NCBI GenBank assembly: GCA_022843565.1 | Contig: JALHNK010000009.1 | Coordinates: forward strand, 1-48,386 | Direction of reading: 5' to 3' | Origin: Phycisphaerales bacterium | Lineage (GTDB): Bacteria > Planctomycetota > Phycisphaerae > Phycisphaerales > UBA1924 | Length of the DNA: 48,386 nucleotides | Shown: positions 1-44,268 of the stretch, in pieces | Numbering within the stretch: the first letter of the stretch is position 1 | Layout: each line of letters opens with the position of its first letter | Translations under genes and position numbers: made by a program | Notes under the pieces: model-generated | Databases searched by the model: none | What the model saw: only the letters and a program-made list of their open reading frames with translations | What the model was told of the DNA's origin: nothing

Positions 1-195
1 AACGGCGTGACCGAGGCGGACTACAACGTCTTCTTCGCCAACTACTTCGATGCCTTCCCGGTCTGCGACATCGCCAACGACGACGGCGTCAGCCGCGTCC
101 CCACCCCCGCCCCCGGCACCGTCGTGAACAACGGCGTGACCGAAGGCGACTACAACTTCTTCTTCGCGGTCTACTTCGACGGCTGCACGCTCTAA
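1..195 (+). CDS. GC-type dockerin domain-anchored protein, C-terminal fragment (5' end outside window)
   Basis: The frame is open from base 1 and ends at TAA 193-195, so only the last 64 residues of a protein that starts upstream are present. They hold most of the two-part C-terminal domain: N-G-V-T-E-A-D-Y-N-V-F-F, then C-D-I-A-N-D-D-G, a Pro-rich linker, and N-N-G-V-T-E-G-D-Y-N-F-F-F ending D-G-C-T-L. The tail aligns without gaps to the last 195 bases of the gene ending at 30443, with about 11 differences by eye, and the likeness runs past the stop. By analogy with the complete members it is the anchor of a secreted protein; the cargo part cannot be seen. The GTG at position 7 is not a start. 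Confidence 0.85.
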   Translation, partial: NGVTEADYNVFFANYFDAFPVCDIANDDGVSRVPTPAPGTVVNNGVTEGDYNFFFAVYFDGCTL

Positions 196-24032: not shown

Positions 24033-24335
24033 TTGAGAAGGCACTGGGCACGGGGCACTGGGCCCTGGTCCACCAAATCTGACCCCTCAAAGACCGGCAA
24101 CGGTCATAAACCCCGGCTCACGCGAGCCGGGGTTTTTGTTTGGTCGCGATCAGGCAGTCCCTGCGTTCCCCGGCCTCGTGCCCCCGGCCACCCCCTCAAT
24201 TCTCCTGAATTGCCCCTCATTACGGGTGCTTTTGATCGGATTCGTGCAATACTCCCCTTCCGATCCTGATGCCCGCCGCGCCAGATGTCCGCGCGGCTGG
24301 CAGTCTCATTCACGCCGATGCAAGGACCCATCACG
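24033..24335. other. 303-base intergenic region: word repeats, terminator, leader
   Basis: After the stop come GGCACTGGGCAC words (24036-24068), then the shared-arm terminator at 24111-24137, then about 200 bases with no gene leading to the ribosome site AAGGA (24322-24326) of the next gene. Confidence 0.7.
24111..24137 (+). terminator. Rho-independent terminator (shared-arm family)
   Basis: Arms CCCCGGCTC / GAGCCGGGG around ACGC, then five T. Confidence 0.92.
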
Positions 24336-27300: not shown

Positions 27301-27821
27301 TCAACAACCTGCCGGTCCGTGACCATCGCATCGACATGAAGATCGAGGAGCGTTTCAACGGCACCGCGGCGATCTTCACCAATCGCAACGGCGGCGCGCT
27401 GAACTTCAACACGGTCCTGCGGATCCCCGCCGGAACGCCGCCGTGCTACATCACGCTCAACGGACAGCCGGCCAGCGCTGACGCGATCGACACCGCCACC
27501 GGTCGCGTGACCGGCAGCGGGCCGATCCAGACCGGCATCGGCGCAGAGACCGTCTTCTTCGTCTTCACCAAGAGCCCCACGGACATCGCTGACGATTCCG
27601 GCAATCCGCTGCCGCCGTACAACGTCGGCCCCAACTCCGAGAACAACGGCGTGACCGAGGGCGACTACAACGCGTTCTTCTCCGGCTACTTCGAGGCCCT
27701 GCCCTACTGTGACATCGCCGATGACTCCGGCGGCACGCCGCCGATCGGCACCAACAACGGCGTGACCGAGGCCGACTACAACGTCTTCTTCAGCGTCTAC
27801 TTCAACGGCTGCCCGTCCTGA
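24336..27821 (+). CDS. GC-type dockerin domain-anchored glycoside hydrolase, GH15-like (glucoamylase/glucodextranase type)
   Basis: 1161 residues. The signal peptide ends M-A-Q at about residue 24. A large beta-rich N-terminal region (to about 520), as in bacterial glucoamylases, precedes an (alpha/alpha)6-barrel region. Family signs are Y-P-F-V-W-P-R-D-M-A-W-A (W580-D583), Q-V-D-E-T-A-V-I-P-W with V-H-G-D, and G-F-G-A-E-Q-M followed by T-A-W-P-N-A-W, with Glu923 as the candidate catalytic base. GH15 enzymes release glucose from starch or dextran ends; which alpha-glucan is used cannot be told. The last about 83 residues are the GC domain, but the usual first cysteine is absent (S-P-T-D-I-A); the end is N-G-C-P-S. 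AAGGA before ATG 24336 fixes the start. This is the clearest enzyme among the anchored proteins. Confidence 0.83.
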   Translation: MRFTRPALLSLAASFAIVSPTLMAQSVDFDPFGPIPTSNLGAISNGGFGSATTQRTPPAPREDETILIYFRVCCQNAYDRVAIYYTTDGSEPQGSASVGFGTTQVISNVSPTGPVQFIANQFGVSGGTRDWWRATLPVGTRAYNQRIRYKLARWINSNPNATQAWAGGGSSSNAAQTFEHTNLLAWPGQGSAFPGNEGVGYPPFWPYKEEGVVGNNFINSMLDQNGNIFDIYYPGAGAVQGIATKNEGYVDGFDTFPAGLPLDNRGQMHLNQILTGIRAGGITSWLSNQNGTDFTNIQQQYEPRTQTITTTSTYVRAGRNISITQHDFSPKGVFTPPNASQGMTIKRMILRNNQATTQTVNVYMYMDPALNGGDNHDFMLKSTDMLGAMIAGDNTYRVVTNTGSIGFGQEYNPTTFGGYEKNVSVFLAAAMKTVPSVNGTGGAMASDAWRDTSGDNGQGWIGQQVILPPNQDVEVNFIIVGGFERPAGRDAFAGINGPGVYNIQMGPIISWFRDGNTSTWQAQTDAYWQNFLNQGVTVELPDARLQTLFDRGILGTMLHFDERTGGLIAGFRNGAYPFVWPRDMAWAGVTLARVGHTDVVDRMTRFLRDTTFRDFETWTNGNTPGFEAAGGNPFFGTRKGFWKQKYTTDGFTVWGAPQVDETAVIPWMVLYNYKVHGDANYLIEDQAGNPANTTYSVVKDAAIAMSQTSKNDGTRLNHRQSYPGASTFMMYSNNVWEDKYDTFIMSNANIVRGLRDAATIAGTIGQPADANDFINRANGIKAGLDDKLFWNGEASDISMLGIVYPFETHLATDTRAVKIIDRINGVAQDRFGNTHPLVRFPNQFINNASDFVGLIDRYWGDSYWGNGSLGNTPAGPWFLTTLWYGAYYAMRQDFTPGKADIDNHLYRLNRAADHNGPIGFGAEQMAPSNSLLYPGQSDFTLQTAWPNAWESMSFYVDSVMLFLDFTPDSPGNTLRTEPKLPTGWTSMKFNNLPVRDHRIDMKIEERFNGTAAIFTNRNGGALNFNTVLRIPAGTPPCYITLNGQPASADAIDTATGRVTGSGPIQTGIGAETVFFVFTKSPTDIADDSGNPLPPYNVGPNSENNGVTEGDYNAFFSGYFEALPYCDIADDSGGTPPIGTNNGVTEADYNVFFSVYFNGCPS

Positions 27822-28208: not shown

Positions 28209-30443
28209 ATGCCTCGCTCGCTCTCGACCTCGATTCTGGCTCTGGCGCTGGCCGCCAGCGCCGCAATGGCTCAGAACTCAACGCTGCCGTCGGTCACCGT
28301 GCCCAGCGTCACCGACGTGAACACCTTTGTCGCGCTGAACACCGCCGGCGTCCCCGCCGGCACGTATCGCGCGTACACGATGACCATGAACTGGTCAGAG
28401 AACGCGTTCTCCGGCGCGTATTCCGAGGAAGCCCAGCCCTCGCTCTACTCCGCCGCGGACATCTCCAGCACGCTGCACGCCTTCGGTCGCGTCGGTCGCT
28501 TCTCGAACTCCAACGAGAACAACGTGACGCTCTCGTGGCAGGGCAACCTGATCAACAACTACACCGGCGGCCAGCCGCTGTTCCTGGCCGCGAGCCAGCT
28601 CCCGTTCATCGGCGGCACGCCGAACGCCACGTGGGCGAACGTCGCGGTCACCGTCCGCTCCGCGGCGTACACCGCGCCGGCGGTGTTTGAGGACTTCGGC
28701 ACCGCGAACTTCGGCGCTGTCGGCACCTCGGTGCCGCAGACGTTCACCGGCCCGTTCGCCGCGGGCGATGTGAAGTGGTTCAAGGTCGTCATCCCCGCGC
28801 CGGGCATCACCACGGGCGCGCTGGACAACGGCAACTTCCTGGACATCACGACGCAGAACTCCGCGGGGCGCTCGATCGTCTACCTCTTTGATGAGAACGG
28901 CTTCCGGCTGCGGAACGCGCCGCTGTCGACGTCGTCGGCGCTCTTCGGGACGATGAGCTTCGGCGGCACGACCACGCCGCGCGATCCCAACAGCATCATT
29001 CCTGTGTTCGCCGGCGGCGATGGCGGCCTGCCCGCGGGCACGTATTGGCTTGCCGTCACCGCTCGCAAGGCTTTCTTCAACGAGACCAACACCGTCGCGT
29101 TCGACGGCTGGCAGGTCTTCAACGACGGCGCATCGACGACCGGCTCGTACAGCATCCAACTCACCTACGGGCGCGTCTCGCCGGTGGCCAACTGCACGAT
29201 CACCGAGACCGAGCCGAACGATACCAAGGCCACCGCTCAGGCCGTGAGCTTCACCGCGTTCAACGACGTGCTCTGCGGCACCTGCACCGGCAACAGCCAG
29301 ACCACACCGGGCGCAGGCAGCGCCGACTACTTCAAGATCTCCGTCCCCCAGGCGCCCGCTGGCCAGATTTACCGCCACCGCATGCACATCGAAACCGGCG
29401 GCTCGGCATTCGTTCACAACTTCCAGATGCGCTCGCTCGACGTCGTCGGCGGCGTCATCGACACCGCCTCTGACGAGCTCTTCACCAACGCTGTCGGCAG
29501 CACGAATCCCTCGCGACTGCTGCAGTTCTACACCCTCGGCTCCGAGCCCAACCCGTACGTCATCGTCCGCGTGCTGGGCTCCGCCTCCACCACCAATCCG
29601 TACAAGATCATCTACGACGGCTTCGATGTCGTGACCATCGATGAGCTCGGCAGCTTCGCCGCCGGCAACACCGCCATCACCACCGCTGGCGACAGCTTCC
29701 TGCCGAACATCAACGGCGGCATCGATGTCGTCACCACCGATACCGACATGTCGATCTACGACGCCTCGTTCAACCCTGTCGCTGGCGCCAGCAACGACGA
29801 CCCGACAAGTCTGACCGGCCCCCAGAGCGCAGCGCTCACCCGTTCGCTCAACGCCGGCACCTACTACCTGGCCATCTCCAACTTTGACGTGGCCAACGAC
29901 CAGCCCCCCGCCTTTGACGAAGGCCGCCCGAACAAGGGCAACGCCATGGACTCCGCCGGCGTCATCGCTTGCAGCGAGGCCCGCCCCGGCGTCATCGCCC
30001 CCACCGCCCTCATCAACTATCAAATCACGCTCACTGACAGCGTCGGCGCGTCGAACATCTTCTTCACCAACAAGAGCGCCGCGTTCGAGGTCCGCTTCAT
30101 CCGCTTTACGCTCGTTGGCGCTCCCTCCGCGACGCGTTGCAACGGCGCCGACATCGCGTACGACACTGGCGACTTCCTCCCCCGCGCCGAGATCGTCGAC
30201 GGCAGCAACGGCACCCCGGCGATCCCCGGCCCGTCCCTCGGCGTGAACAACGGCGTGACCGAGGCGGACTACAACGTCTTCTTCGCCAACTTCTTCGACG
30301 CCTTCCCGGTCTGCGACATCGCCAACGACGACGGCGTCTCACGCGTCCCGACCCCCGCCCCCGGCACCGTCGTGAACAACGGCGTGACCGAAGGCGACTA
30401 CAACTACTTCTTCAGCATCTACTTCGACGGCTGCACGCTCTAA
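28209..30443 (+). CDS. GC-type dockerin domain-anchored protein with PPC-like domains
   Basis: 744 residues. The signal peptide ends A-M-A-Q (residue 23). The cargo is all-beta. Around residue 330, E-T-E-P-N-D-T-K-A-T-A-Q-A-V is the classic opening of a pre-peptidase C-terminal domain, and earlier sections contain D-V-K-W-F-K-V-V-I-P-A, Y-L-F-D-E-N-G-F and P-A-G-T-Y-W-L-A-V, which fit another such domain. The C-terminal domain (from 30138) has an unusually long first linker (about 20 residues between D-T-G and N-N-G-V-T-E) and ends D-G-C-T-L. GGAG before ATG 28209 supports the start. No catalytic residues are recognised. The final 195 bases and the 3' flank match window bases 1-251. Confidence 0.85.
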   Translation: MPRSLSTSILALALAASAAMAQNSTLPSVTVPSVTDVNTFVALNTAGVPAGTYRAYTMTMNWSENAFSGAYSEEAQPSLYSAADISSTLHAFGRVGRFSNSNENNVTLSWQGNLINNYTGGQPLFLAASQLPFIGGTPNATWANVAVTVRSAAYTAPAVFEDFGTANFGAVGTSVPQTFTGPFAAGDVKWFKVVIPAPGITTGALDNGNFLDITTQNSAGRSIVYLFDENGFRLRNAPLSTSSALFGTMSFGGTTTPRDPNSIIPVFAGGDGGLPAGTYWLAVTARKAFFNETNTVAFDGWQVFNDGASTTGSYSIQLTYGRVSPVANCTITETEPNDTKATAQAVSFTAFNDVLCGTCTGNSQTTPGAGSADYFKISVPQAPAGQIYRHRMHIETGGSAFVHNFQMRSLDVVGGVIDTASDELFTNAVGSTNPSRLLQFYTLGSEPNPYVIVRVLGSASTTNPYKIIYDGFDVVTIDELGSFAAGNTAITTAGDSFLPNINGGIDVVTTDTDMSIYDASFNPVAGASNDDPTSLTGPQSAALTRSLNAGTYYLAISNFDVANDQPPAFDEGRPNKGNAMDSAGVIACSEARPGVIAPTALINYQITLTDSVGASNIFFTNKSAAFEVRFIRFTLVGAPSATRCNGADIAYDTGDFLPRAEIVDGSNGTPAIPGPSLGVNNGVTEADYNVFFANFFDAFPVCDIANDDGVSRVPTPAPGTVVNNGVTEGDYNYFFSIYFDGCTL

Positions 30444-30900
30444 GACGAGGGCCGAGGTTTGAGGGCCGAGGGCCGAGTGGGATGGCATAGGGCATCGGGC
30501 ACTGGGCATCAGTCTTGTTCTGCTGAAGGCTGGTGGCTGATGGCTGAAAACTGAAAGCTCCCTCAAGCCCCGGCTCGTCTGAGCAGGGGCTTTTTCGTTA
30601 CTGGCGCGCCAAAATGGGCGAAATGGGCACCCGTACCACGGGTTTGCCCGATGCGCGACGACGTTTTGTGGCATCACCGCGGCGGGTGTTGTACGGTTCT
30701 GACGATGGCGTTGCACGCCCGCGTGTAACCGCGACGGCGCGAGCGCTGTTCCCGCATGTCCCCGCATCGTGTGGGACCTTTGACCCGTTTTGCGATGTCA
30801 CCAAACCACGCGGCCCGCTGTGCGTATCGTGAAGTTCTCACTCGAAGCACCGCTCAGGCCGTCGGCGATCGATAGACCGAACAACACTCAGGAAGCTCCA
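30444..30900. other. 457-base intergenic region: repeats, terminator, leader
   Basis: Word repeats (GAGGGCCGAG, GGGCATCGGGCACTGGGCAT, then GGCTGGTGGCTGATGGCTGA) run to about 30560, followed by a terminator. Then an imperfect hairpin GGGCA-CCCGT/ACGGG-TGCCC lies at 30625-30649. The rest is the leader of the next gene, with AGGAAG about seven bases before its ATG. No gene is seen. Confidence 0.65.
30566..30595 (+). terminator. Rho-independent terminator (shared-arm family, one mismatch)
   Basis: Arms AGCCCCGGCTC / GAGCAGGGGCT around GTCT, with a single G-A mismatch, then TTTTT. Confidence 0.9.
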
Positions 30901-32613
30901 ATGAAGCTGATGACCGCCGCGCTTGCCACGACCCTTCTCGCCGGTACCACGCTCGCCCAGCCGCTGCATCGCGTGCTCTATACCACCCAGGAGTCCGTCG
31001 CACCGACGAACGTGATGCCCGGCGGCGGCCTCTTTGAGAGCTTTCAGAAGCTCGATGTCTCTCCGAACGGCCAGCACGCCGCGCTGATCGCTCGGCGCGC
31101 CGTCGCAGTGAACCGCGATTACGCGCTGATCCGCAACCCCGGCAGCGGTGCATCGGTCATCATCCGGTCTGGCTCGGCGTTGCCCGCGCCGTACGCGACG
31201 CTCAGCACGCGCATCGGCACCACCGCATCGGACGAGGGGATCAAGCTGACCGAGCTGAGCGTCAACGACGCTGGTCAGATCGCCTTCGTCGCGCGCAGCA
31301 CCGGCACCGGCGCGCCGACCGAGCCGCGCAACGTGCTGCTCCGCCACGATCCGGTCGCGGGATTCTCGTACATCAAGGTCGGCGGGCAGACGCTGCCCGG
31401 CCTGTTCAGCGGCCTTCAGCCCGGCGCGCTGCCCGCGGTCGGCCTCGTGAATGACTCGAACTTCGCCGCGGCGTTCTCCGGCGTGAACATGCTCGCCGAC
31501 GGGACCGTCGCGTACCAATCCAACGACATTATCGATGACGGCACCGGCGGCATCAACCCCGGTGGCGGCGTCTCGAATCACTTCGCGGCTTTCACCTCCA
31601 ACGGTGACTCGCCGGCCGACGTGCTCAACCAGCAGGGCTCAACACCGATCACCGGTGGCTTCGGCTGGCTCTTCAGTCATACCGGCGGCACGCTCCACAT
31701 CACGCCCGATGGCACGCAGTGGATCCTCCGCGGCAACCAGTTCTGGAACACCGCCGGCAACGCCGTGCTCATCCGCAACAACGCCCTGCTCTATCAGGTC
31801 GGTGATGAGATCCCCGGCCTGCCCGGCGAGTTCATCTCCAACGCATCGACCGCCATCGGCTCGACGATCACTCAGGACGCCTTAGGCAACTGGTACGCGC
31901 CCGTCGTCGGCACCGCGGGCACGCGCGCACTGCTCCGTAACGGCGTGATCATCGCCAAGAGCGGCGACCCCATCACCCCCACCGGCACCGTCAACTACCA
32001 GGCCCCCGGCGGCGGCGGCTTCCTGGCCATCCCCGCCTCTGATGGCCAGTACGCCATCATCGGCACAACCGTCAGCACGCCGACGATCCAGCGCGTGTGT
32101 GTGCTCAACGGCACGACACTCCTGGCATCCTTCGGCGACAAGGTCGATGTCAACAACGACGGCATCGACAACGATGACCGCGTCATCCGCAACTTTGACA
32201 GCAGCACATCGGCGTTCGTCGGCACGAGCAAGCTGCTGCTGGGCGTGACGCTCGGCACCGCCATCAACGACAGCGCAGTCGGAAGCGCGATCCTTGAGAT
32301 CTCGCTTGCCGACACCCCGGTGCCGGCCCGCTGCAACGCCGCGGACATCGCCAACGACGGCGGCCAACCGATCCACAACTTCACGACGGCGCCGAACCCG
32401 CTGGTGCCGAACAACGGCACCGGCGAGGCCGATTACAACGTCTTCTTCGCCAACTACTTTGACGCGATCGCGGTCTGCGACATCGCCGACGACCAGGGCA
32501 TCCCGCTCCCGCCGTTCGGCAACGGCGGCGTCTTCCCGAACGTGAACAACGGCGTGACCGAGGGCGATTACAACTACTTCTTCAGCGTCTTCTTCGACGG
32601 CTGCGCGTTCTGA
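30901..32613 (+). CDS. GC-type dockerin domain-anchored secreted protein, propeller-like
   Basis: 570 residues. A short signal peptide (M-K-L-M-T-A-A-L-A-T-T-L-L-A-G-T-T-L-A-Q) ends near residue 20. The cargo is beta-rich with weak repeats such as L-D-V-S-P-N-G-Q-H-A-A-L-I-A and L-S-V-N-D-A-G-Q-I-A-F-V-A, which suggest a beta-propeller; I recognise no named family and no catalytic motif. The GC domain starts at 32332. Its first half is the most deviant in the window, with N-N-G-T-G-E-A-D-Y-N in place of N-N-G-V-T-E; its second half is standard and ends D-G-C-A-F. AGGAAG before ATG 30901 supports the start; the frame opens earlier at 30790. Confidence 0.82.
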   Translation: MKLMTAALATTLLAGTTLAQPLHRVLYTTQESVAPTNVMPGGGLFESFQKLDVSPNGQHAALIARRAVAVNRDYALIRNPGSGASVIIRSGSALPAPYATLSTRIGTTASDEGIKLTELSVNDAGQIAFVARSTGTGAPTEPRNVLLRHDPVAGFSYIKVGGQTLPGLFSGLQPGALPAVGLVNDSNFAAAFSGVNMLADGTVAYQSNDIIDDGTGGINPGGGVSNHFAAFTSNGDSPADVLNQQGSTPITGGFGWLFSHTGGTLHITPDGTQWILRGNQFWNTAGNAVLIRNNALLYQVGDEIPGLPGEFISNASTAIGSTITQDALGNWYAPVVGTAGTRALLRNGVIIAKSGDPITPTGTVNYQAPGGGGFLAIPASDGQYAIIGTTVSTPTIQRVCVLNGTTLLASFGDKVDVNNDGIDNDDRVIRNFDSSTSAFVGTSKLLLGVTLGTAINDSAVGSAILEISLADTPVPARCNAADIANDGGQPIHNFTTAPNPLVPNNGTGEADYNVFFANYFDAIAVCDIADDQGIPLPPFGNGGVFPNVNNGVTEGDYNYFFSVFFDGCAF

Positions 32614-32832
32614 GCGGAAGGGCCGAGGGCCGAGTGTGTGGGGCAGGCGTCCTCGCCTGCCTGCCGCAGACCACGGTCCTTGCCGCGACGGCAATCGGGA
32701 TTCGGCAATCGGCAATCGTGGAGAATCAGATGCAACAAGACTCCGGCGCGCCGTGCGCCGGGGTTTTCGTTCGAAGCTGCTGGCTGGCGGCTGCTGGCTG
32801 AAGGCTGGCGGCTGAAATCTGTCGGCTGACGG
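32614..32832. repeat. Intergenic short-word repeats around a terminator
   Basis: GGGCCGAGGGCCGAGTG, then GGCAGGCGTCCTCGCCTGCCTGCC with GACGGCAATCGG and GGCAATCGGCAATCG. After the terminator, CTGCTGGCTGGCGGCTGCTGGCTGA-type words. The segment GCCTGCC ... CGCAGACC ... CGCGACGGCAATCGG is found again, inverted, at about 42960-43010 beside another GC-dockerin gene. Confidence 0.7.
32741..32767 (+). terminator. Rho-independent terminator
   Basis: A nine-pair stem CTCCGGCGC / GCGCCGGGG (two G-T or outer pairs) around GCCGT, then TTTT. The arms differ from the shared family. Confidence 0.8.
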
Positions 32833-32857
32833 CTCTCTCCCCGCCAACGATCGTCGC

Positions 32858-33783: not shown

Positions 33784-36642
33784 TCACGTTCCGCAGCCGT
33801 TGAAGAAGATCGAGAAGAACAAGTTGTAGTCTGCCTCGGTCACGCCGCTGTTGATTGTCAGCGGGCCGAACGGTGGCGCCGGAGAGCCGTCGTTGTTGGC
33901 GATGTCGGTCAATGGGTTCGCGTCGAAGTACACGCTAAAGAACGCGTTGTAGTCGGCCTCGGTTACGCCGCGGTTGACGCTCGAAGGGTCACATGGTTCA
34001 AACGGCGGGAGCGGCCGTCCGGAGTCATCCGCGATGTCTGCTGCGTTGCAGCGTCTGCCTTGCGTGGTCAGTTCCAATAGAGCTGCTGCCGATGTCGTTT
34101 CACCACAGTCATCGGAGACGACACACGTATACGTTCCTCGTGTGAGAGAACTCGCCCCGAAGACTGTCAATGTGGCCGTGGCTGCCGTCGGATTCGTGGT
34201 CGTGCTGATAGCTGCGCCGTTTCGGAGCCATCGATACCGCAGCGGCCCTCCGGCGCTGCTGCCCTGAGCAATCACCGAGAACGTGACATTCGACCCGGCG
34301 CACGCACTGAGGATGCTCGTTGGCTGCGACGTGATGACCCGCGACGGCCCCCCGCCCCGATAGGTAGAGAACTCGTACGAGGCTCCCGCCGCGTTCAGAA
34401 AGAACGCCCCGGCTGCACTGAACCCTCCATCCGGTCGCAGAGCCAGCGCTCGGACAGGGCCGCCGAGGCCTCCATCAGCGCTCCGCCATCGGGTTCCGTC
34501 GAACAGAGCGATGTTCCGGGTGGCAGCTGCAACTCCCGCCGTGCTGAAGTTCCCGCCAACCGCGATGTCACCGTTGGGGAGCGTCACGATTGCGTCAACG
34601 GATGCCGGGATCGGGCCGGAGGCGCTGACTCCGCTCTCCAATGAACGCCAGTTGGTGTTATCCCACCGGGCAACACTCGTCGTCGAAAAGGCACCAGATG
34701 TCGTAAAGGTGCCCCCCGCGATCACACCACTCTCGCCGAGACGCGCCAAAGCCCTCACTGGGCCGTTGAATCCGGCACCGAGGCTCCGCCAGGCGGACCC
34801 GGTCCAGATCGCGATTCGGGCGACGGGGACCGTTCCTGATTGCGAGAAGGAGCCGCCCGCAACCAAGTCGCCGTTCGGCATGACCAAAAGCGCGTTCACG
34901 TCACCATTGAAGCCAGCTCCCATGCTCGTCCACTCGGATCCGTTCCACCGAGCGATTCGATTGACCGGCACTCCGCCAGCTGCGGTGATCGTCCCAGCGG
35001 CGACGATATCTCCGGACGGGAAGATCGCGACTGCTCTAACGGTTCCGGACACTCCCGTCCCAAGTGCCGACCAAACGCCACTCCGAAGAACCGCGACCGA
35101 TGACGCAGCAACGCCGCCTGCGGACGTAAAGCTACCGCCAACAACAAGGTCTCCGTTTGCAGCGACCGCAAACGATTGAACGATCGCTCCGGCATTCATC
35201 CCACCTGCGAAGGTCTCCCAGTTCGATCCGGTCCATCGCGTGATTGCGCCGGTGGCAGATGGCCCCTCTGTGGGCGACTCACGACCCGCGATGACGTCAC
35301 CGCTCGGCAGGACCGCAAGTGCCTGAATGCTCCCGACGACCGCCGGTGCCGGGCCCAAGGAAGTCCAGTTGTCGCTCACGCTGGCGGCAATCGACAGGGC
35401 ACGAACCCCGCTGACCTGATCAAATCTACCGCCGATGTACACCTCGCCGGTTGGCAACGCAAGAACCTCTGCGACAGAAGCGGACGGACCGCTGACACCG
35501 GTACCAAAGGGCGACCACGTTGACCCTCTGAGGACCGCGACGGATCTTGCCGGAACGCCAGCAACGGATGTGAAGAGTCCGCCAATCACAAGATCGCCGT
35601 TTGGCAGAGCCGCCATGCCCGCGACAGTTGCAAGCCCAGTCCCATTCAAGAGACCCGCGTCCATTGCACTCCAGACGCTTCCGTTCCATCGGGCGATCGG
35701 CGTTGTTGGAGATCCATTCAAGAAGTTGATCACGCCGCCAACAACGATGTCGCCGTTTGGCATGATCTGGATCGACGAGACTCTGGAGCCGTTCCCGAAC
35801 CCGCCACCGATGGGCGAGAATCCGGGAGGCCGCCAGAGAACCAGACCCCAGCTTCCCGTGCGCCCGGCAAACGAGAAATCCCCGCCAATGATCAAGGAGC
35901 CGTCGGCGGTAACGGCCAGTGCTTGGACGACATTTCCCATTTCAGCGATGGAGGACCAACCGAAAGTCGCGGTCCAGCGAGCGATGTTGATTGCGATGAC
36001 AGCGCCACCAGCCGCGTGTGTGAAGCGGCCACCAACAACCAAGGTGCCGTCCGGAAGAACTGCGAGCGCGTTGACTGAAGCAGGCGAGTTCGGGATGCCC
36101 GAGTTGTTAACCACTCCGTTGCCGCCGCCGAGCGCCAGCCACTGGCCTCGGCTCCAGCGCGCGATCCGACTCGCCGGCACCCCGCCCGCCTCAGTGAACA
36201 GTCCGCCGGCGACCAAGTCGCCGTTTGGTAGAACGATGAGCGCGTTCACAGCGTCGTTGCATCCCGCGCCGAAAGATCCCCATGTATTCGAGCCGGTGTC
36301 AAAGTATGCGATGTTGTTCGCGGCGATGCCCCCGGCAAAGCCGAAGCGACCTCCGACAACGATGCGCGCCGGTAGCGGACCAGCCCCATCGGGATCCCAC
36401 CTCACCAGCGCACTCACGCTTCCATCGACACCGGGAATCGGTTCGCCGGGCACCCACCGACCGGGGCACTGCGCTGAGCAAAGCGGTGTCGCTGCCAAAC
36501 AAATCAGCATACAGCAATAGAACAGAAAACGGCTGTGCAACTTCTTCGCGAAGAGCACCAACGCGCGGCGACCCGTCAACTCGATCAGCCCTCCGCGTTG
36601 ATTCCCCGAGAAGATACGGCCAAGGCACCACAAGCTCTGCAT
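33784..36642 (-). CDS. GC-type dockerin domain-anchored repeat protein with Ig-like domain
   Basis: 952 residues from ATG 36642, chosen because GGAG lies six bases upstream; the frame opens at 36792. The signal is unusual: about 40 residues of n-region precede the hydrophobic core (F-L-F-Y-C-C-M-L-I-C-L-A-A), with cleavage probably after C-S-A. From about residue 70 to 770 a unit of about 40 residues repeats some 15 times: L-P-N-G-D-L-V-A-G-G-x-F, A-G-G-V-P-A, I-A-R-W-x-G-x-x-W, L-G-x-G, consistent with large propellers. An Ig-like domain follows (about 770-865; Y-R-W-L-R-N-G, G-T-Y-T-C-V-V-S-D). The GC domain begins at 34050 and lacks the middle cysteine (L-T-D-I-A); the end is N-G-C-G-T. 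No enzyme motif is seen. Confidence 0.83.
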   Translation of the reverse strand: MQSLWCLGRIFSGNQRGGLIELTGRRALVLFAKKLHSRFLFYCCMLICLAATPLCSAQCPGRWVPGEPIPGVDGSVSALVRWDPDGAGPLPARIVVGGRFGFAGGIAANNIAYFDTGSNTWGSFGAGCNDAVNALIVLPNGDLVAGGLFTEAGGVPASRIARWSRGQWLALGGGNGVVNNSGIPNSPASVNALAVLPDGTLVVGGRFTHAAGGAVIAINIARWTATFGWSSIAEMGNVVQALAVTADGSLIIGGDFSFAGRTGSWGLVLWRPPGFSPIGGGFGNGSRVSSIQIMPNGDIVVGGVINFLNGSPTTPIARWNGSVWSAMDAGLLNGTGLATVAGMAALPNGDLVIGGLFTSVAGVPARSVAVLRGSTWSPFGTGVSGPSASVAEVLALPTGEVYIGGRFDQVSGVRALSIAASVSDNWTSLGPAPAVVGSIQALAVLPSGDVIAGRESPTEGPSATGAITRWTGSNWETFAGGMNAGAIVQSFAVAANGDLVVGGSFTSAGGVAASSVAVLRSGVWSALGTGVSGTVRAVAIFPSGDIVAAGTITAAGGVPVNRIARWNGSEWTSMGAGFNGDVNALLVMPNGDLVAGGSFSQSGTVPVARIAIWTGSAWRSLGAGFNGPVRALARLGESGVIAGGTFTTSGAFSTTSVARWDNTNWRSLESGVSASGPIPASVDAIVTLPNGDIAVGGNFSTAGVAAATRNIALFDGTRWRSADGGLGGPVRALALRPDGGFSAAGAFFLNAAGASYEFSTYRGGGPSRVITSQPTSILSACAGSNVTFSVIAQGSSAGGPLRYRWLRNGAAISTTTNPTAATATLTVFGASSLTRGTYTCVVSDDCGETTSAAALLELTTQGRRCNAADIADDSGRPLPPFEPCDPSSVNRGVTEADYNAFFSVYFDANPLTDIANNDGSPAPPFGPLTINSGVTEADYNLFFSIFFNGCGT

Positions 36643-36986: not shown

Positions 36987-37244
36987 TCAGAACGAGCAGC
37001 CGTCGAAGAAGATCGCGAAGAACAGGTTGTAGTCGCCTTCGGTCACGCCGTTGTTGGTGGCAAGGGTGCCGAAGGGCGGCAGGGGTGAGCCGTCGTCATT
37101 GGCGATGTCGCAGGCGGCGCCGGCGTCGAAGAACGTCGCGAAGAAGAGGTTGTAATCGCCTTCGGTCACGCCGTTGTTCGTGCCGGCGGTGCCGATGGGC
37201 GGCAGCGGCGAGCCGTCGTCATTGGCGATATCGGCGGGGTTGCA
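36987..37244 (-). repeat. GC-domain DNA copy A (near-identical to 43048-43305)
   Basis: The 258-base C-terminal segment of the beta-helix gene. Compared by eye with 43048-43305 it has about seven substitutions and no gap, mostly silent, although the two host proteins share nothing else. The copy at 42209-42469 is a more distant third member. Confidence 0.85.
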
Positions 37245-40200
37245 GCGGGCCGGGGCGCAGGTCTGTGCGGTGAGGGTGGCGGTGGTGCTGGTGACGCCGC
37301 CGCACGCGGTGATGATGTCAACGTCATAGTTGCCGACATCCGCGGCTGAGAAGGCCGGGATGGTGAGGGTCAGCGTGGCTGCCGATGGATTCAAGACCGG
37401 GTCGATCGCGATGCCTTGGAAACGCCACTCGACAATCTGGGCCGGGGCTCCAGTGACCACGACGGTCAGCACCGCGGGCTGCCCAAGGCACGCGGCGAAC
37501 GACGCGGGCTGCGTCGTGATGACCGGTGCGCAAGGCGGGGCATTGAACTCATACGCGCCCATGTCCACCGTCAGCGGGGCGCCGTTGGTGCCGGCGGCGA
37601 AGCGAGCGTTCTCGACCAGATCAAAGCCCAGGGCCGCGGGGACCAGGGCGTTGTTGCCCGTGTCCACCGACGGAGAGCCGGCGCTGAGGCGGAAGTTGCC
37701 GGCCGGGGCATCCGCAAAGAGCGGATCCGCGTCAATGTTCCCGATGCCACTGAAGCCACTCTCGACGTTCGACGAGGTGACGTTGATCGAAACCGGCGGG
37801 TCAACAAACGCGCAGCCGACACCGTTGACGTTCGGAAGACCGGTGTTCAAACGGACAATCGAGTTCTCGATCGAGCTGACGCCGATGGCATCGCACGAGC
37901 CGAAGTACACGCCGCCGCCGGCGTTGCGAACGATGGTCGAGTTCTCGACACGGTTGGAGCGCGGCGTGCCGCCGATGCCGTCGATCATCATGCCGCCGCC
38001 GAGGTTCGACGCGGTGTTGTCGGCGATGAGGAGATTCTCGAAAGAAGCGTTGAGCGAGCTGGTCCAGATGCCGCCGCCTCGCGCGGCGGAGTTGCCCGTG
38101 GCGATGGTGTTGTAGATACGGGCCGGGCCAGCGCGATCGATGAACATGCCGCCGCCGCGCACGTTGTTCAGGTTGCCGGTCGGGACGGTCGCCGCGACGT
38201 TCCCGATGAAGCGAAGATTCTCAGCGAGCACGGAGCCGCCCGCACCGCCGCCGGAGAGATGGAGCCCGCCGCCAACGCGGGCCTGGTTGTTGGTGAAGGT
38301 CAGGTTTCGCAGGGTGACGTTGATCGCGTCGATCCGGGCGCCGCCGCCATCGCCGAACGAGTCAGTCGCAGTTGGGTTTGCCTTGCAGCCGGTGAAGGTC
38401 GTGTTCTCAACCAGGAGCGAGGCGCCCGAACCCAGCAGGCCGCCGGCGAGCTTGCCCTCACAATCGATGAACGCAACATCGCGGACTTCGCCACCGGCCG
38501 AGCTGATGCGGAGTCCGCCGCCATCGCCGAACTGGCCGGAGGCGGTGGGGATGGCCCTGCAACGGGTAAACGTGGTGTTCTCCACAATGGCCGAGACGGT
38601 GCCGCTGAGGTTGAAGCCGCCGTGGAACTTGGCGCTGCAATCGGTGACAGTGGTCTGACGGACCACGGTATTGGTGCCACCGAACTCGCCAGCGCCGATG
38701 TCGCCGCCGTTTCCGGTGGCGTTCGGCGTGGAGACGAGGTTGCGGAACGTCGAGTTCTCGACCGTGACAGATGATGTGCCCGTCGTGCCGATCGCGCGGA
38801 TGCCGGCGACGTTGCGGGCGGTGCAGTTCTCCACTGTGACGCTGCGGAGCAGGATGGTGCCGGCCGAGACGTTCGCTGCGCCCCAGTCGCCACCGTTGCC
38901 CGTCGCATCAAAGACCGCGCTCAGGTTGCGGAACTGTGTGCGGGTGAATGAGACCGTCGAATCGCTGCGTCCGGGGTAGACGACGCCAGCGCCCTGACGC
39001 GACGTGGCATCACGGAACACGGTGTCGGTGACGATGAGCCCGCCGGCGGCCTCACCAAAGATGTGAGAGCCGATCGTCGGTGCCGAGTTGTTCGCGAACG
39101 TGCTGGACTCGATCGTGATGTTCACGCGCCCGGTCGCGCCGATCGCGCCGCCTTCCATGCGCGTCGGGCCGAGCGTCGTGTTTCCGGTGAACGTACACCC
39201 GCGGATGAGCGACGAGCGCAGCGTGGTCGAGGTGCTCTCGAACCAGATTGCGCCGGCGCGGTTGTTGGTCGCCTTGTTGGCGTCGAACGTGCAGTTGATG
39301 AAGTTCGCGGCCGATCGGCGCACGCGCACCGCGCCGCCCTCGTTCGAGGGCGTGGAGCCCGAGTTCACCGTGTTGTTGCGGAAGGTCGTCCGCTCGAACG
39401 TTGTCAGATTGGCGCCGCTATCGATGCGGACCGCGCCGCCGCCGCCGGAGAAGATGAACGAGCCGCTGCTACCACCGATGGCCTGGTTGTCCTCGAGCAC
39501 GCAATCGGAGATCCGCGTCACCGTCCGGAGGGACAGGGCACCGCCAACGCTCGCGACGTTGCCCGTGAACGTCGAGTTGGCGATGATCGCGCCGTCGGGC
39601 CCGCTTGGGGCCTGCAACGAGGCCTGTGCGATCGCGCCGCCGGTGCTGTTGGTGGCGGTGTTCGCGGTGAAGGTTGCGTTCCGCACGCTGAACGCGCCGA
39701 TGGCGTTCGTCGAGATCGCGCCGCCGCTGCTGGTGCTGGTGTTCGAGGCGAACTGGGTGCCGTCCACCGAGAGCGAGACCAGGGCGTTGCTCCCCAGCAA
39801 CGAGATCGCTCCGCCGCCGCCACCGCCGGTCAGGCTGTTGCCGGTGAACGAGCCGCCGGTGACCGTCAGCACGACCACGTCGCGAGCCGCCAGCGCCCCG
39901 CCGCCGAAGACCTCGCTGAGCCCTGTGAGCGACGTGCTCGCGGTGTTCGATGTAAAGGTTGTTGCGGTGCCGATGTCCAGCGTGCCGCCGCCCGAAGCGC
40001 CGATCGCACCACCACCAACGTTCACGCCCTGATTGCCGGTGAACGTGCTGCCGTTGACCGTCGCGATGCAGTCGGCCATCGAGACCGCGGCACCGAGCGC
40101 GACGCCGCCGATGCTCGTAGTCGCGAAGTTGTTGCGGATCGTGCTCGCGGTGATCGTCAGCGAGCCGCCGACGGCGTTGATCGCGGCACCGCCGCCATCG

Positions 40201-40622
40201 AGCGACTGGTTGTTCTCAACGATCGAGTTCAGCAGGATCACGGTCGAGCTCGTCGCGTTGATGCCCGCGCCCGAGCCGCTGGCCAACGTCGCGCCCGAGA
40301 TCGTGAAGCCATCGATCGTCACCGTTCCGGTCGCGGTGGTGATGGTCACCAGCGGCGCGGCACCGCCGGGCGCGCTGATCGTGGTCAGGGCGGCACCCCC
40401 GGTCGATCGAAGCGCGAGCCCCTTGCCCAAGAAGTCAATCTGCTCGACGTAGACGCCCGGCGCGACGAGCACCTCATCACCGTTGGCCGCCGCGGCGATC
40501 GCCGCCTGGATGCTCGGGAAGTCCGCCGGAACGTTGATCGTCGCGCTCAGAGCGCTGCACGACGTTCCGCTCAGCAGACACAGGATCAACGCGGCACGAA
40601 CAGATCGGTGCGAACACAGCAT
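36987..40622 (-). CDS. GC-type dockerin domain-anchored right-handed beta-helix protein with Ig-like domain
   Basis: 1211 residues. The start is ATG 40622 with AGGAG seven bases upstream. The signal peptide core is A-A-L-I-L-C-L-L-S-G-T-S-C-S-A-L-S-A. It opens with the pectin-lyase-like start I-N-V-P-A-D-F-P-S-I-Q-A-A-I and G-D-E-V-L-V-A-P-G-V-Y, then some 40 coils of 20-25 residues rich in G-G-A-I, N-S-T-F-T-G-N and V-E-N-T-T-F, as in chlamydial Pmp-like and other parallel beta-helix surface proteins. A section with A-D-P-L-F-A-D-A-P-A-G-N-F-R-L-S closes the helix, an Ig-like domain (I-T-T-Q-P-A-S ... V-G-N-Y-D-V) follows, and the GC domain (36987-37244) ends D-G-C-S-F. No lyase active site can be assigned, so a structural or adhesin role is as likely. 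Confidence 0.87.
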   Translation of the reverse strand: MLCSHRSVRAALILCLLSGTSCSALSATINVPADFPSIQAAIAAAANGDEVLVAPGVYVEQIDFLGKGLALRSTGGAALTTISAPGGAAPLVTITTATGTVTIDGFTISGATLASGSGAGINATSSTVILLNSIVENNQSLDGGGAAINAVGGSLTITASTIRNNFATTSIGGVALGAAVSMADCIATVNGSTFTGNQGVNVGGGAIGASGGGTLDIGTATTFTSNTASTSLTGLSEVFGGGALAARDVVVLTVTGGSFTGNSLTGGGGGGAISLLGSNALVSLSVDGTQFASNTSTSSGGAISTNAIGAFSVRNATFTANTATNSTGGAIAQASLQAPSGPDGAIIANSTFTGNVASVGGALSLRTVTRISDCVLEDNQAIGGSSGSFIFSGGGGAVRIDSGANLTTFERTTFRNNTVNSGSTPSNEGGAVRVRRSAANFINCTFDANKATNNRAGAIWFESTSTTLRSSLIRGCTFTGNTTLGPTRMEGGAIGATGRVNITIESSTFANNSAPTIGSHIFGEAAGGLIVTDTVFRDATSRQGAGVVYPGRSDSTVSFTRTQFRNLSAVFDATGNGGDWGAANVSAGTILLRSVTVENCTARNVAGIRAIGTTGTSSVTVENSTFRNLVSTPNATGNGGDIGAGEFGGTNTVVRQTTVTDCSAKFHGGFNLSGTVSAIVENTTFTRCRAIPTASGQFGDGGGLRISSAGGEVRDVAFIDCEGKLAGGLLGSGASLLVENTTFTGCKANPTATDSFGDGGGARIDAINVTLRNLTFTNNQARVGGGLHLSGGGAGGSVLAENLRFIGNVAATVPTGNLNNVRGGGMFIDRAGPARIYNTIATGNSAARGGGIWTSSLNASFENLLIADNTASNLGGGMMIDGIGGTPRSNRVENSTIVRNAGGGVYFGSCDAIGVSSIENSIVRLNTGLPNVNGVGCAFVDPPVSINVTSSNVESGFSGIGNIDADPLFADAPAGNFRLSAGSPSVDTGNNALVPAALGFDLVENARFAAGTNGAPLTVDMGAYEFNAPPCAPVITTQPASFAACLGQPAVLTVVVTGAPAQIVEWRFQGIAIDPVLNPSAATLTLTIPAFSAADVGNYDVDIITACGGVTSTTATLTAQTCAPARCNPADIANDDGSPLPPIGTAGTNNGVTEGDYNLFFATFFDAGAACDIANDDGSPLPPFGTLATNNGVTEGDYNLFFAIFFDGCSF

Positions 40623-40696
40623 GGGCAACTCCTGCGAGGTGTTGAGGATTGAACGGATCGACAAACGATACTCGGACTTTGAGTCGTTGCAAGAAG

Positions 40697-40710
40697 AATG
40701 TTTAAACATT
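40697..40710. promoter_or_regulatory. Perfect 14-base palindrome AATGTTTAAACATT
   Basis: AT-rich palindrome in an otherwise GC-rich region, directly abutting the -35 of the rightward promoter and about 75 bases before the leftward start at 40622. Probable operator for one or both divergent genes. Confidence 0.55.
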
Positions 40711-40739
40711 TTGCCAACACGTGAAGTTCGGGTTATACT
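40711..40739 (+). promoter_or_regulatory. Sigma70-type promoter giving a leaderless mRNA
   Basis: TTGCCA (40711-40716), 17-base spacer, TATACT (40734-40739). ATG 40746 lies six bases after the -10, at the expected transcription start, and has no Shine-Dalgarno. Confidence 0.7.
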
Positions 40740-40745
40740 TCATCT

Positions 40746-41972
40746 ATGCCTGCTCAAGCTCGACCACCGATCGTCGCCGTCGAGGCTGGTGCCGACCCGT
40801 TCTTTGACGAGGCAGGGAAAACCCTGCGCGAGCTCCGTGCCGCGACCGGGTCGGTGATCGCTGCGTGCGGGGGGATCGAGCGAGCGACCGACGTCGCGAC
40901 GCGGCTGGATCTTGATTCGAGCATCGCGTGGAAGCTGTGGCACGTTGGGCGTGATGTGGCTGGACTTCCTTCGCCTGCGCACATCCCCGGCAAGCAGGGG
41001 TACGAGCGGTTCCTGCAAGCGGCGGCGGCCCTGGGCATTGAGCCGGCGGTGATCGATCGGGCCCGCGCCGCGTTCGCCGGCTTTCAGCAGTTGGCGCGTC
41101 ATCACGCCGGCGATCGAGCCGCGGCGGACCGGCTCATCGGCGCGATCACTGACGAGGGTCGCTCCCGACTGGACACGAGCATCCGGCGCGACGGCTTTCG
41201 CGCCAACGCGTATCTGCTCGGGGTTCAGGCCGACAGCGTGTACCAGCTCGACGCGCTCAAGCCTGTAGGGGCAGAGTTCATGCCGGAGGTCTTTCGCGTG
41301 CGCGGGCACTTTGGTCTACAGCGCAACCGGGCCAACGCGCCATGGGTCATGTCTCGGACGATGCTTGTGTACGACGCGGGCCGTTCAGAGGATCTGAAGC
41401 GCTCGCCGATCGACGGTCGTCCGGAGGCGACGAACTCGCCGGGATCGCTGCTGCTTGCGCAGTTCTGCTCGGAGCAGAACATCCCGATCGTGCGCCGAAC
41501 GCTGGCGGATTCGACGGTCGAAGATGAGCTCGCTGCGGGGCACATCGGCCAGAGCGGCGCGCTGGATGTCGTGCTCGGCGAGCACTTCAGCGGGATGCCG
41601 CGGATCAAGCAGAGCGCCGACGCGATGATCATGCGGGTGCTGACACCGGCCAAGCGGCTGGTGTTTGACGTGCTTCTGCCGCCGGGCATCCCGCACCGGT
41701 CGGTGAGCTATCGCGTGCACAGCACGGTGCAATCGGACGTGCCCTACAGCCGGAGCGATGACTACGCGCAGATTCCGATTGCTGAGTCACTGGAAGTCCT
41801 CGGCGCCGCGTCAACGGCGCCCGAGGCGATCGAGGTGCCACACCAGGGGCAGATGCTGCGCTGGCTGCTGGCGCGTCTGCCAAGCGCCGGCGAGGGGTAC
41901 ACGCTCTGCCGCGTGCGGATGAAGTTCCCGCCGGTGCCGTCGGTGGTCGCGGTGCGATACGAGCTTGCGTGA
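40746..41972 (+). CDS. Unrecognised cytoplasmic protein with HTH-like N-terminal segment
   Basis: 408 residues. I do not recognise the family. There is no signal peptide, membrane helix or GC domain, unlike its neighbours. Residues about 36-65 (A-C-G-G-I-E-R-A-T-D-V-A-T-R-L-D-L-D) could be a helix-turn-helix: a helix, a turn at L-D-L-D-S-S, then I-A-W-K-L-W-H-V-G. The rest is mixed alpha/beta with no catalytic motif that I can name; the segment around 230-330 contains paired hydrophobic strands. It has the strongest promoter in the window, with a palindrome next to it, and is divergent from the giant beta-helix gene. A role as a regulator, possibly autoregulated, is inference only. Confidence 0.7.
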   Translation: MPAQARPPIVAVEAGADPFFDEAGKTLRELRAATGSVIAACGGIERATDVATRLDLDSSIAWKLWHVGRDVAGLPSPAHIPGKQGYERFLQAAAALGIEPAVIDRARAAFAGFQQLARHHAGDRAAADRLIGAITDEGRSRLDTSIRRDGFRANAYLLGVQADSVYQLDALKPVGAEFMPEVFRVRGHFGLQRNRANAPWVMSRTMLVYDAGRSEDLKRSPIDGRPEATNSPGSLLLAQFCSEQNIPIVRRTLADSTVEDELAAGHIGQSGALDVVLGEHFSGMPRIKQSADAMIMRVLTPAKRLVFDVLLPPGIPHRSVSYRVHSTVQSDVPYSRSDDYAQIPIAESLEVLGAASTAPEAIEVPHQGQMLRWLLARLPSAGEGYTLCRVRMKFPPVPSVVAVRYELA

Positions 41973-42000
41973 GTTGGGGGCGAGGGCGGCGGCCGACCGA

Positions 42001-42205
42001 GAGACTTCAGACTTCAGACTTCAGACTTCAGCAACACCAAAGCCCCGGCTCGCGGGAGCCGGGGCTTGGTGTTCGTTAGTCGCGAGTCGCGAGTTCCGAG
42101 TCGAGAGTTGACGCCGGCGTTGAGCGGATCAGCCACACTGATGCCCAGCGCCCGGTCCCAAGTGCCTTCCCTCTCAGCACTCAGCACTCATCGCTCAGCA
42201 CTCTG
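42001..42205. repeat. Intergenic short-word repeats flanking a bidirectional terminator
   Basis: GACTTCAGACTTCA repeated four times (42001-42031), the terminator, then GTCGCGAGTCGCGAGT words, GCGCCCGGTCCCAAGTGCCTTCC and CTCAGCACTCAGCACTC words to 42205. Read on the minus strand these are the same words, in the same order, that follow the stop at 195. Confidence 0.72.
42041..42066. terminator. Bidirectional terminator hairpin (shared-arm family)
   Basis: Eleven-base perfect arms AGCCCCGGCTC / GAGCCGGGGCT around GCGG, between convergent genes. The T-tract is short in both directions (TTGG rightward, TTTGG leftward). Confidence 0.8.
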
Positions 42206-42208
42206 CTC

Positions 42209-42718
42209 TTAGAACGAGCAGCCGTCGAAGAAGATGGCGAAGAAGAGGTTGTAGTCGCCTTCGGTGACGCCGTTGTTGGTGGCGAGCGTGCCGAAGGGGG
42301 GTAGCGGTGTGCCGTCGTCATTGGCGATGTCGCAGGCTGCGCCCGCGTCGAAGAACGTTGCAAAGAACAGGTTGTAATCGCCCTCGGTCACGCCGTTGTT
42401 GACGCCGCCGGCGGGGCCGATGGGCGGGAGGGGCGCACCGTCGTCATAGGCAATGTCCGCGGGGCTGCAGCGTGGGGCGGTCGGCGTGGAGGTGCCCGGC
42501 CAGAAGCCGCCTTTGATCGTGAAGGTGCTCCCACTGAGCGTGCCAGCATCCGGCTGGCCGATCGTTCCGGACACGGAGTAGACGATGCCGGTCGAGGTGC
42601 CGCCGCCACCGTCAATCGTGTACCAAGGCACCGAGAAGCTGCCCGCAAGGGCCGCGCGTGAGAACACAAGCGACCCAAAGAACACGGCGGCAGAACGAAT
42701 GGCGACGGTACGGGTCAT
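42209..42718 (-). CDS. Minimal GC-type dockerin domain-anchored protein
   Basis: 169 residues, the smallest carrier. A signal peptide (A-V-F-F-G-S-L-V-F-S-R-A-A-L-A) ends near residue 25. The mature cargo is only about 55 residues: F-S-V-P-W-Y-T-I-D-G-G-G-G-T-S, then Y-S-V-S-G-T-I-G-Q-P-D-A-G and F-T-I-K-G-G-F-W-P-G. I believe this module recurs in planctomycete exported proteins; its function is unknown. The GC domain (from 42469) then fills the second half and ends D-G-C-S-F. AGGAGG six to seven bases before the ATG supports the start. Because it is nearly all anchor, it may be a filler, a competitor for the anchoring site, or a donor sequence for conversion of neighbouring copies; these are guesses. 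Confidence 0.83.
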   Translation of the reverse strand: MTRTVAIRSAAVFFGSLVFSRAALAGSFSVPWYTIDGGGGTSTGIVYSVSGTIGQPDAGTLSGSTFTIKGGFWPGTSTPTAPRCSPADIAYDDGAPLPPIGPAGGVNNGVTEGDYNLFFATFFDAGAACDIANDDGTPLPPFGTLATNNGVTEGDYNLFFAIFFDGCSF

Positions 42719-43047
42719 GGAGAGCCTCCTAGCCGAATCGAAGTCTACAGCAAATCCGCAGTGCGATTGGCGAACATGCCACAGATTTCAGAGATCATCT
42801 GACGGTGCGACCCGGCGCGCGGGCACGCTGGCGAAGGGGTCTGTTCGGACGCGGCGCGCGAGCTGCGGCTCGGAATGGGCCCGTCGAGATCGATCAAACG
42901 AAAAGCCCCGGCTCGCGCGAGCCGGGGCTGTCGAGTTGTCTCAGTGCCTTCGCGATTGCCGATTGCCGTCGCGGCGGGGTCGGCGGTCTGCGGTAGGCAG
43001 GCGGGACACCTGCTCCACGCTCAGCACTCAGCGCTCAGCACTGGTTC
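42719..43047. other. 329-base intergenic region: terminator and word repeats
   Basis: It holds a leftward terminator (42901-42929), CGATTGCC/GATTGCCG words (42950-42970), a segment related to 32640-32710, and CTCAGCACTCAGCGCTCAGCACT at about 43020-43042. No gene is seen. Confidence 0.65.
42901..42929 (-). terminator. Rho-independent terminator (shared-arm family)
   Basis: Perfect arms AGCCCCGGCTC / GAGCCGGGGCT around GCGC; read leftward it is followed by TTTCG. It terminates the gene ending at 43048. Confidence 0.88.
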
Positions 43048-43305
43048 CTAGAACGAGCAGCCGTCGAAGAAGATCGCGAAGAAGAGGTTGTAGTCGCCTT
43101 CGGTCACGCCGTTGTTGGTGGCAAGGGTGCCGAAGGGCGGCAGGGGTGAGCCGTCGTCGTTGGCGATGTCGCAGGCGGCCCCGGCGTCGAAGAACGTCGC
43201 GAAGAAGAGGTTGTAATCGCCCTCGGTCACGCCGTTGTTCGTGCCGGCGGTGCCGGTGGGCGGCAGCGGCGAGCCGTCGTCATTGGCGATATCGGCAGCG
43301 TTGCA
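43048..43305 (-). repeat. GC-domain DNA copy B (near-identical to 36987-37244)
   Basis: Same length, phase and codon choices as copy A, with about seven substitutions. The cargo-coding DNA just upstream shows no likeness, so the match stops at the domain edge. Confidence 0.85.
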
Positions 43306-44268
43306 GCGCGGCGTGGGCGGCGCGGTGAAGAGACCGGGGGCGTAGGTTGCGCCGCCGCTGGGGTTGGCGGTGTTCGGGCCGAGGCTCGAGTTCGCATAAG
43401 CGGGGTACGGCGTGGAAATGGGTTCATCGAACGTGCCCGACGCGATGTCGTAGATCTTGTGGGTGCCGCCGTTGCCCTGCACGCCGTCGGAGAGCAGGAA
43501 GACCTTGCCGCCGCCCACAGCCAGGCCGTCAACATCCGTGGTGCCGGCGGGGTAGGTGAACACGATGACCAGTGGGGCGGCGAGGTTCGAGGCGTCCAGC
43601 GAGTAGACGTTGCGGCCGCCGGTGTCGTCATCGTCGGCCATGAAGAACTTGTCGCTCGCGGCGTCGTAGTCGAAGCCATCGATGGTGAAGTCCGACGCCG
43701 GGGAGACCTCAAACTGGCGGACGAGCGTGGTCTGGCCGGTGGTGGTGTTAATCTCGTAGATGCCCTCGGGCTGGAGGGTGGCGCCGCTGCCGCTCTGGAG
43801 GCTCTTGACGCCGAAGAGGCGATTGCGAGTGGAGTCATAGCCGAGGCCGGTGAGAACGACGCCGTTGGCGTTGGTGAGGGTGTTCTCGACCAGCGGGTTG
43901 ATGCGGCACTGAGCGACAAAGGTCGCGGTCGCGGTGTCGTAGCTGATGGCGTGCAGGTCGCTGCGGAGGCCGTTGGTGGTCACGGCGTAGAGGCGGCGGT
44001 TCGCCTCGTCCGCCGCGAGGCCCTGGAAGCCGGGGGCAGTGGCGGGGATGACCGGGGCGGCGAGCGGGTCAAAGAACTGGGCGCTCTCGCCGGATGAGAG
44101 GTCGAGCTTGTAGACGAGGGCAGGGTTGGGGTTCGGAACGGGGCCGAGAGCCGCGGGGCGGGTGATTGCGGTGGCGACCTGACCGGCGGCGGTAGAGACC
44201 AGCGCGGCCGAGAGCATGACAACCGTCGCGGACAGACCGATCGCTCGCGAGGATGAACATCCTGACAT
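43048..44268 (-). CDS. GC-type dockerin domain-anchored propeller-like protein
   Basis: 406 residues. The start is ATG 44268 with AAGGAG eight bases upstream. A signal peptide (I-G-L-S-A-T-V-V-M-L-S-A-A-L-V-S-T-A-A-G-Q) ends near residue 30. The cargo (to about 320) has propeller-like blades: L-V-Y-K-L-D-L-S-S-G, L-A-A-D-E-A-N-R-R-L-Y-A-V-T, I-Y-E-I-N-T-T-T-G-Q-T, D-G-F-D-Y-D-A-A-S-D-K-F-F-M-A-D-D and D-G-L-A-V-G-G-G-K-V-F-L-L-S, the kind of repeat used for surface binding. No catalytic motif is seen. The GC domain ends D-G-C-S-F and its DNA is almost that of the beta-helix gene. A possible cotranscribed gene upstream is mutY, 231 bases away, but the gap and strong own ribosome site argue for separate expression. 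Confidence 0.85.
   Translation of the reverse strand: MSGCSSSRAIGLSATVVMLSAALVSTAAGQVATAITRPAALGPVPNPNPALVYKLDLSSGESAQFFDPLAAPVIPATAPGFQGLAADEANRRLYAVTTNGLRSDLHAISYDTATATFVAQCRINPLVENTLTNANGVVLTGLGYDSTRNRLFGVKSLQSGSGATLQPEGIYEINTTTGQTTLVRQFEVSPASDFTIDGFDYDAASDKFFMADDDDTGGRNVYSLDASNLAAPLVIVFTYPAGTTDVDGLAVGGGKVFLLSDGVQGNGGTHKIYDIASGTFDEPISTPYPAYANSSLGPNTANPSGGATYAPGLFTAPPTPRCNAADIANDDGSPLPPTGTAGTNNGVTEGDYNLFFATFFDAGAACDIANDDGSPLPPFGTLATNNGVTEGDYNLFFAIFFDGCSF

Follow-up and report, generated by a model that had tools for sequence, protein, structure and literature searches.

The window, that is, the whole stretch of DNA analysed here (48,386 nucleotides), is the entire contig C9 of a Phycisphaerales MAG (G000; 3.54 Mb, 237 contigs, 89% complete). 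Segments A and B, on which this report centers, are the 3′ ends of two of its minus-strand genes, 6 kb apart, and further copies of the same domain lie on both strands:

1..195, plus strand: truncated copy of the domain, cut by the contig start; contig C1 ends in the same 119 bases with which this copy begins
23769..24032, plus strand: domain copy (gene 21459-24032)
27570..27821, plus strand: domain copy on a GH15-like protein
30138..30443, plus strand: domain copy grouped with C81_7153, C91_2932 and C138_4338, a second set that is strongly homogenised, the cargos being unrelated
32332..32613, plus strand: domain copy
33784..34050, minus strand: fourth copy of the domain on this strand, carried by a Rax2/Ig-type propeller protein and diverged (62% to A without gaps)
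36987..37244, minus strand: domain copy A, C-terminal and dockerin-like, two repeats of ~41 residues, stop codon TGA
37245..40622, minus strand: cargo of gene A, an exported beta-helix protein with a C-terminal Ig-like domain
42209..42469, minus strand: third domain copy, with one extra codon, on a small exported protein (42209-42718)
43048..43305, minus strand: domain copy B, 97.3% identical to A over the sense codons, stop codon TAG
43306..44268, minus strand: cargo of gene B, exported and propeller-like, with a weak DUF4394 match; likely ATG at 44268

Gene A opens, from its ATG at 40622, with a signal-peptide-like start (MLCSHRSVRAALILCLLSGTSCSALSA), and the start of gene B is also signal-peptide-like. 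On the plus strand, positions 1-209 and 30249-30457 form a second near-identical pair (95%), which belongs to the C81_7153/C91_2932/C138_4338 group and likewise has unrelated cargos. For comparison we used a sister species of the same genus, G001, taken as Phycisphaerales bacterium Desfum bin_9_GBBB08 (JACVCS01), which was the only match in a scan of genome contigs with the domain alignment, a scan that may leave out the query's own genome. Both genomes are short-read MAGs with a completeness of 89-92%.

The intergenic DNA of the window contains period-7 tandem repeats (198-313, 13257-13287, 24040-24068, 30446-30547, 32689-32834, 42002-42203 and 43020-43042), often immediately 3′ of the stop codons of dockerin genes. 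The period is common to them; the unit is not (CGAGGGC, GGCACTG, GCGACTC, CGGCAAT, AGACTTC, CTCAGCA). A dispersed intergenic unit, consisting of CGGCAAT heptamers and then a terminator-like hairpin (CCCCGGCGC...GCGCCGGGG), sits 3′ of different dockerin genes, namely C81_7153 (L067), C91_2932 (L071) and, in the window, at 32614-32790; the units of C81_7153 and C91_2932 are about 85% alike.

The domain is C-terminal and comprises two 41-residue repeats (CxxADIAxDxG...NNGVTEGDYNLFFA..FFDA..CDIANDDG...NNGVTEGDYNLFFAIFFDGC), with a tandem period of 123 bases in the DNA (1.9 copies). The complete copies in the window all finish within a few residues of the stop, and most have a cysteine at the start and at the end. 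We counted about 87 near-complete copies in this genome (77 matches at E ≤ 1). The nearest named family was the GC-type dockerin (NCBIfam NF041540, dockerin_GC; curated cut-off, 29 bits), against which A, B and the third copy scored 20.1, 18.6 and 19.0 bits, below the cut-off, and four copies of the genome scored 29.1-31.7 bits, above it. Members of NF041540 are likewise C-terminal and cysteine-framed, with two tandem repeats, and many members of this bacterial family have tens to more than 100 of them per genome. However, besides the scores of A and B, the present domain differs from them in its expanded calcium-loop part, which reads DIANDDG...NNGVTEGDYN instead of DxNxDGxxNxxD, the canonical loop being interrupted by a linker.

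Other comparisons gave little more. Pfam dockerin models found no match in 24 copies, and a profile comparison with classic dockerin copies was weak (P 0.01, probability 4%). The structure predicted for the domain, at low confidence (mean pLDDT 59), was a loop-helix-loop-helix with helices at 28-38 and 69-79; it had no PDB match, and Foldseek and VIA-align were without result. No PF00963 cohesin was matched at E ≤ 0.01 in G000 or G001, at the completeness given above, although the partner could belong to a different type. Clostridium cellulosomal dockerins, too, have a duplicated segment with recognition residues (positions 10, 11, 17, 18 and 22) that are common within a species or group and different between groups (PMC5748583), and here, too, the dialect at the corresponding place is particular to each genome; the clostridial system differs from ours in the cohesin and in the Pfam match. 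Given the lack of a canonical calcium loop, of a Pfam match and of a cohesin, and the low-confidence structure, we use "dockerin-like" only as a label, for a divergent tag that is not proven to be a dockerin.

A and B aligned without gaps, with 9 differences over 258 bases; the stop codon accounts for 2 of them and the 85 sense codons for 7. The initial annotation, which had counted about seven differing sites and no gaps, was thus right for the sense part. In that part, 2 amino acids are changed, and 4 codons differ silently. The differences are scattered along the domain, and the longest identical run is 74 bases. The similarity starts at the first domain codon and stops before the stop codon (TGA vs TAG), falling to background at both edges (33% identity over the 30 bases upstream, 20% over the 20 downstream), with unrelated 3′ flanks. 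The third copy, also described at the outset as less alike, was 88.6% identical to A and 87.5% to B, in an alignment that needs one codon of gap.

The cargos had been considered unrelated, beta-helix versus propeller, and this proved correct: cargo A (beta-helix/Ig) and cargo B (propeller-like) gave no significant BLASTP match to each other. Neither has an orthologue in the sister species. For cargo A, no homologue was found at E ≤ 1e-30 in 60 relatives. For cargo B, a scan of genome contigs gave no relative, and the closest one (42%, and the only clear one) was in genome G024, with a classic dockerin at its C-terminus.

We built a codon alignment of all near-complete copies and then, in 300 whole-genome shuffles, exchanged codons at random between copies that carry the same residue in a column; this null preserves every protein sequence and the codon usage of every column. 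Since the A-B differences are spread along the domain and leave no inner tract, we used this shuffling and not a GENECONV-style column permutation. A and B, the most similar of the 3,741 copy pairs in the genome, agree in 79 of the 83 silent-capable codons, whereas 57.9 were expected (sd 4.0; largest value in 300 shuffles, 69); with a z of 5.68 they lie above every pair of the 300 shuffled genomes (largest z, 4.34). In total, 10 of the 3,741 pairs lay above the 5% genome-wide threshold (z 3.83), 8 of them without cargo similarity. The sister genome behaved in the same way, with 13 of 2,926 pairs passing the same test and a top pair that is 97.2% identical on unrelated cargos. In four other genera (11-26 copies each, small samples), the closest pairs share silent codons too, which is only suggestive.

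Tags could conceivably be alike without any copying of DNA, through strong selection on the protein combined with a common codon bias, and dockerin recognition residues are indeed common within a species or group (PMC5748583). The claim that protein selection cannot explain the shared silent sites needs a qualification: of the 79 codons that A and B share, 58 are accounted for by constraint and codon bias, but the observed value was never reached in 300 codon shuffles. The mean silent z over all pairs was about 0 in both genomes, as likeness without copying would have it; this implies that most copies are silent-saturated, that their likeness is mostly kept by selection, and that recent copying is occasional or rare. 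Nearby pairs with unrelated cargo had a slightly higher mean z (0.50 vs -0.05, bare means being compared).

Two homogenised pairs have cargos that can be aligned, and they allowed silent distances to be compared inside and outside the domain. In C33_11834/C33_16482, silent sharing was 0.48 in the cargo (0.48 expected) and 0.91 in the domain (0.70 expected); in C2_54437/C2_57346, it was 0.46 (0.47 expected) and 0.90 (0.69 expected), respectively. In both pairs, the silent sites of the cargo are saturated and those of the domain are not.

A repeated domain might also have been copied or mis-joined by a short-read assembler, and the assembly does break in near-identical domains, as the 119 bases common to the window start and the end of C1 attest. 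C1 and the window contig are probably joined at 1-119, the assembly having broken on the repeat inside a domain copy. The end of C58 and the start of C86 also overlap within a domain copy, over 231 bases, one of them mismatched. Assembly breaks appear to fall where about 119 bases are identical between copies; A and B survived in the assembly because their longest identical run is shorter than that. For this pair, then, an artefact is scarcely conceivable: the 9 differences are scattered, a mis-join swaps flanks and does not make two domains alike, and the sister genome, assembled separately, has the same pattern. Short-read assemblies break at the newest, near-identical copies, so that the counts of these are probably too low in both MAGs.

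The sister species G001 carries about 77 copies of the domain, in a different dialect. Reciprocal best hits between the cargos of the two genomes gave 36 orthologous pairs (35-75% identity over at least 200 residues). Domain identity was 0.66 and 0.65 within the two species and 0.54 between them; it was 0.58 for the 36 orthologues, and 0.547 when cross-species partners were shuffled. For every one of the 36 pairs, there was a paralogous domain closer than the orthologous one, and a maximum-likelihood tree of the 36 + 36 orthologous domains split them by species with a single change (shuffled mean, 24; support 89/98). Neither of the two checks that the initial annotation had named as able to refute its reading, silent distances inside and outside the domain and closeness to orthologues, did so in the pairs to which they could be applied, which do not include A and B. 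The G001 orthologue (70% over 1092 aa) of the GH15-like protein of the window carries the G001 dialect. At the residue after V in the core, Thr is found in 97-99% of the copies here and Asn in 97-99% of those in G001, in both repeats. Several other genera of the family match the family model about 60 to 111 times each, and the sampled genera each have their own core (NTQDVLAFLNAW, NTLDVLAFLNAY, DFNDFLEFLNLYN, TIADLNYYIGLWL, and TLFDFLEFQNLF from a single copy). The genus-specific places in the core match the clostridial dockerin specificity positions 10 and 11 (PMC5748583).

The dialects also differ by a 10-residue insertion in core 1, present in 68 of 77 sister copies and in 0 of 87 here, which separates 30 of the orthologous pairs. 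The insertion is probably derived, because classic dockerins of other genera have short spacing at this place. That 68 genes acquired it independently is not credible, and the insertion must presumably have spread by copying. As selection could not have placed the same 10 residues separately in 68 genes, we regard likeness without DNA copying as very improbable, although somewhat less so than an assembly artefact. In the 30 pairs separated by the insertion, an orthologue signal persists before and after it (reached in 0/2000 and 4/2000 shuffles, respectively); the cores have zero orthologue signal, which is weak evidence taken alone, as cores vary little. A clear mosaic is C27_9099/xC110_57780, where a common gene-specific linker lies directly upstream of the sister-type insertion. 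Linkers surviving beside the insertion fit short-tract conversion into existing domains and not the pasting of whole domains. Nine of the 77 G001 copies are without the insertion, and two copies, xC148_9819 and xC134_25979, retain Thr in the first repeat; it is possible that such copies are unconverted remnants.

The initial annotation had attributed the likeness to recent conversion or domain shuffling by homologous recombination, and the silent excess within the domain and the sorting of domains by species support this. For the A-B pair itself the silent excess stands, but conversion is not fully separated from a recent capture, in which gene A or gene B was untagged before and gained a fresh copy by recombination, with no older domain overwritten. 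The tag is found on very many unrelated cargos; cargo A occurs in no relative and cargo B clearly only in G024, so that a recent assembly of these genes is possible; and the A-B copy spans the whole domain including the linkers, unlike the short tracts that we infer in the sister species. Nevertheless, the stop codons differ and the 3′ flanks are unrelated, so that capture would require a block whose end coincides with the last sense codon, and the relative of cargo B in G024 already ends in a dockerin. Conversion tracts cannot run past the end of homology, whereas pasting would be expected to carry the stop codon along with the block; for A and B we therefore think that conversion probably occurred rather than capture, which is an unlikely but serious alternative.

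Overall, the likely explanation combines gene conversion limited to the domain with selection for a single docking partner common to the copies. Sequence would pass from one domain copy to another by ectopic homologous recombination, presumably for the most part into domains already present, since the tracts end where homology ends. Recognition by a single shared partner would have selection keep the cores uniform, and copying and selection combined may move all tags of a species together, i.e., by concerted evolution. A and B would then represent one recent event, covering nearly the whole domain. A species-specific shared receptor would be a natural explanation of the dialects.

Concerted evolution by gene conversion is known from rDNA and multigene families and from the exchange of the 3′ domain of meningococcal tpsA (PMC3848433), and the present case resembles it in that paralogues are closer than orthologues, silent sites are shared and tracts are bounded by homology. 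However, such systems act on arrays or whole genes, whereas here one small domain on some 80-90 mostly non-homologous, scattered genes is involved, and, unlike in those systems, the domain retains a vertical signal in its linkers. A search for literature combining dockerins with gene conversion or concerted evolution, which covered few subscription journals, found no relevant paper.

The tag version of each species is uniform while the attached proteins, in this bacterium about 90 otherwise unrelated exported proteins, diverge. An old puzzle of cognate tag-receptor systems is how one receptor and dozens of client tags can change together, and here the tag of some 80-90 clients, most of them unrelated, has changed in concert between two congeneric species, with the shared insertion between vertically inherited linkers indicating the part played by DNA copying. 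We consider it slightly better than an even guess that patchwork conversion in short tracts spreads changes, the 10-residue insertion included, through 70 to 90 mostly unrelated genes and keeps the docking code uniform, so that the exported proteome can shift dialect together with its unseen receptor, each genus of the family having a dialect of its own. The co-change of tag and receptor is something that sequence comparison can test, and a protein whose variation between genera parallels that of the dialect would be a lead to the receptor.
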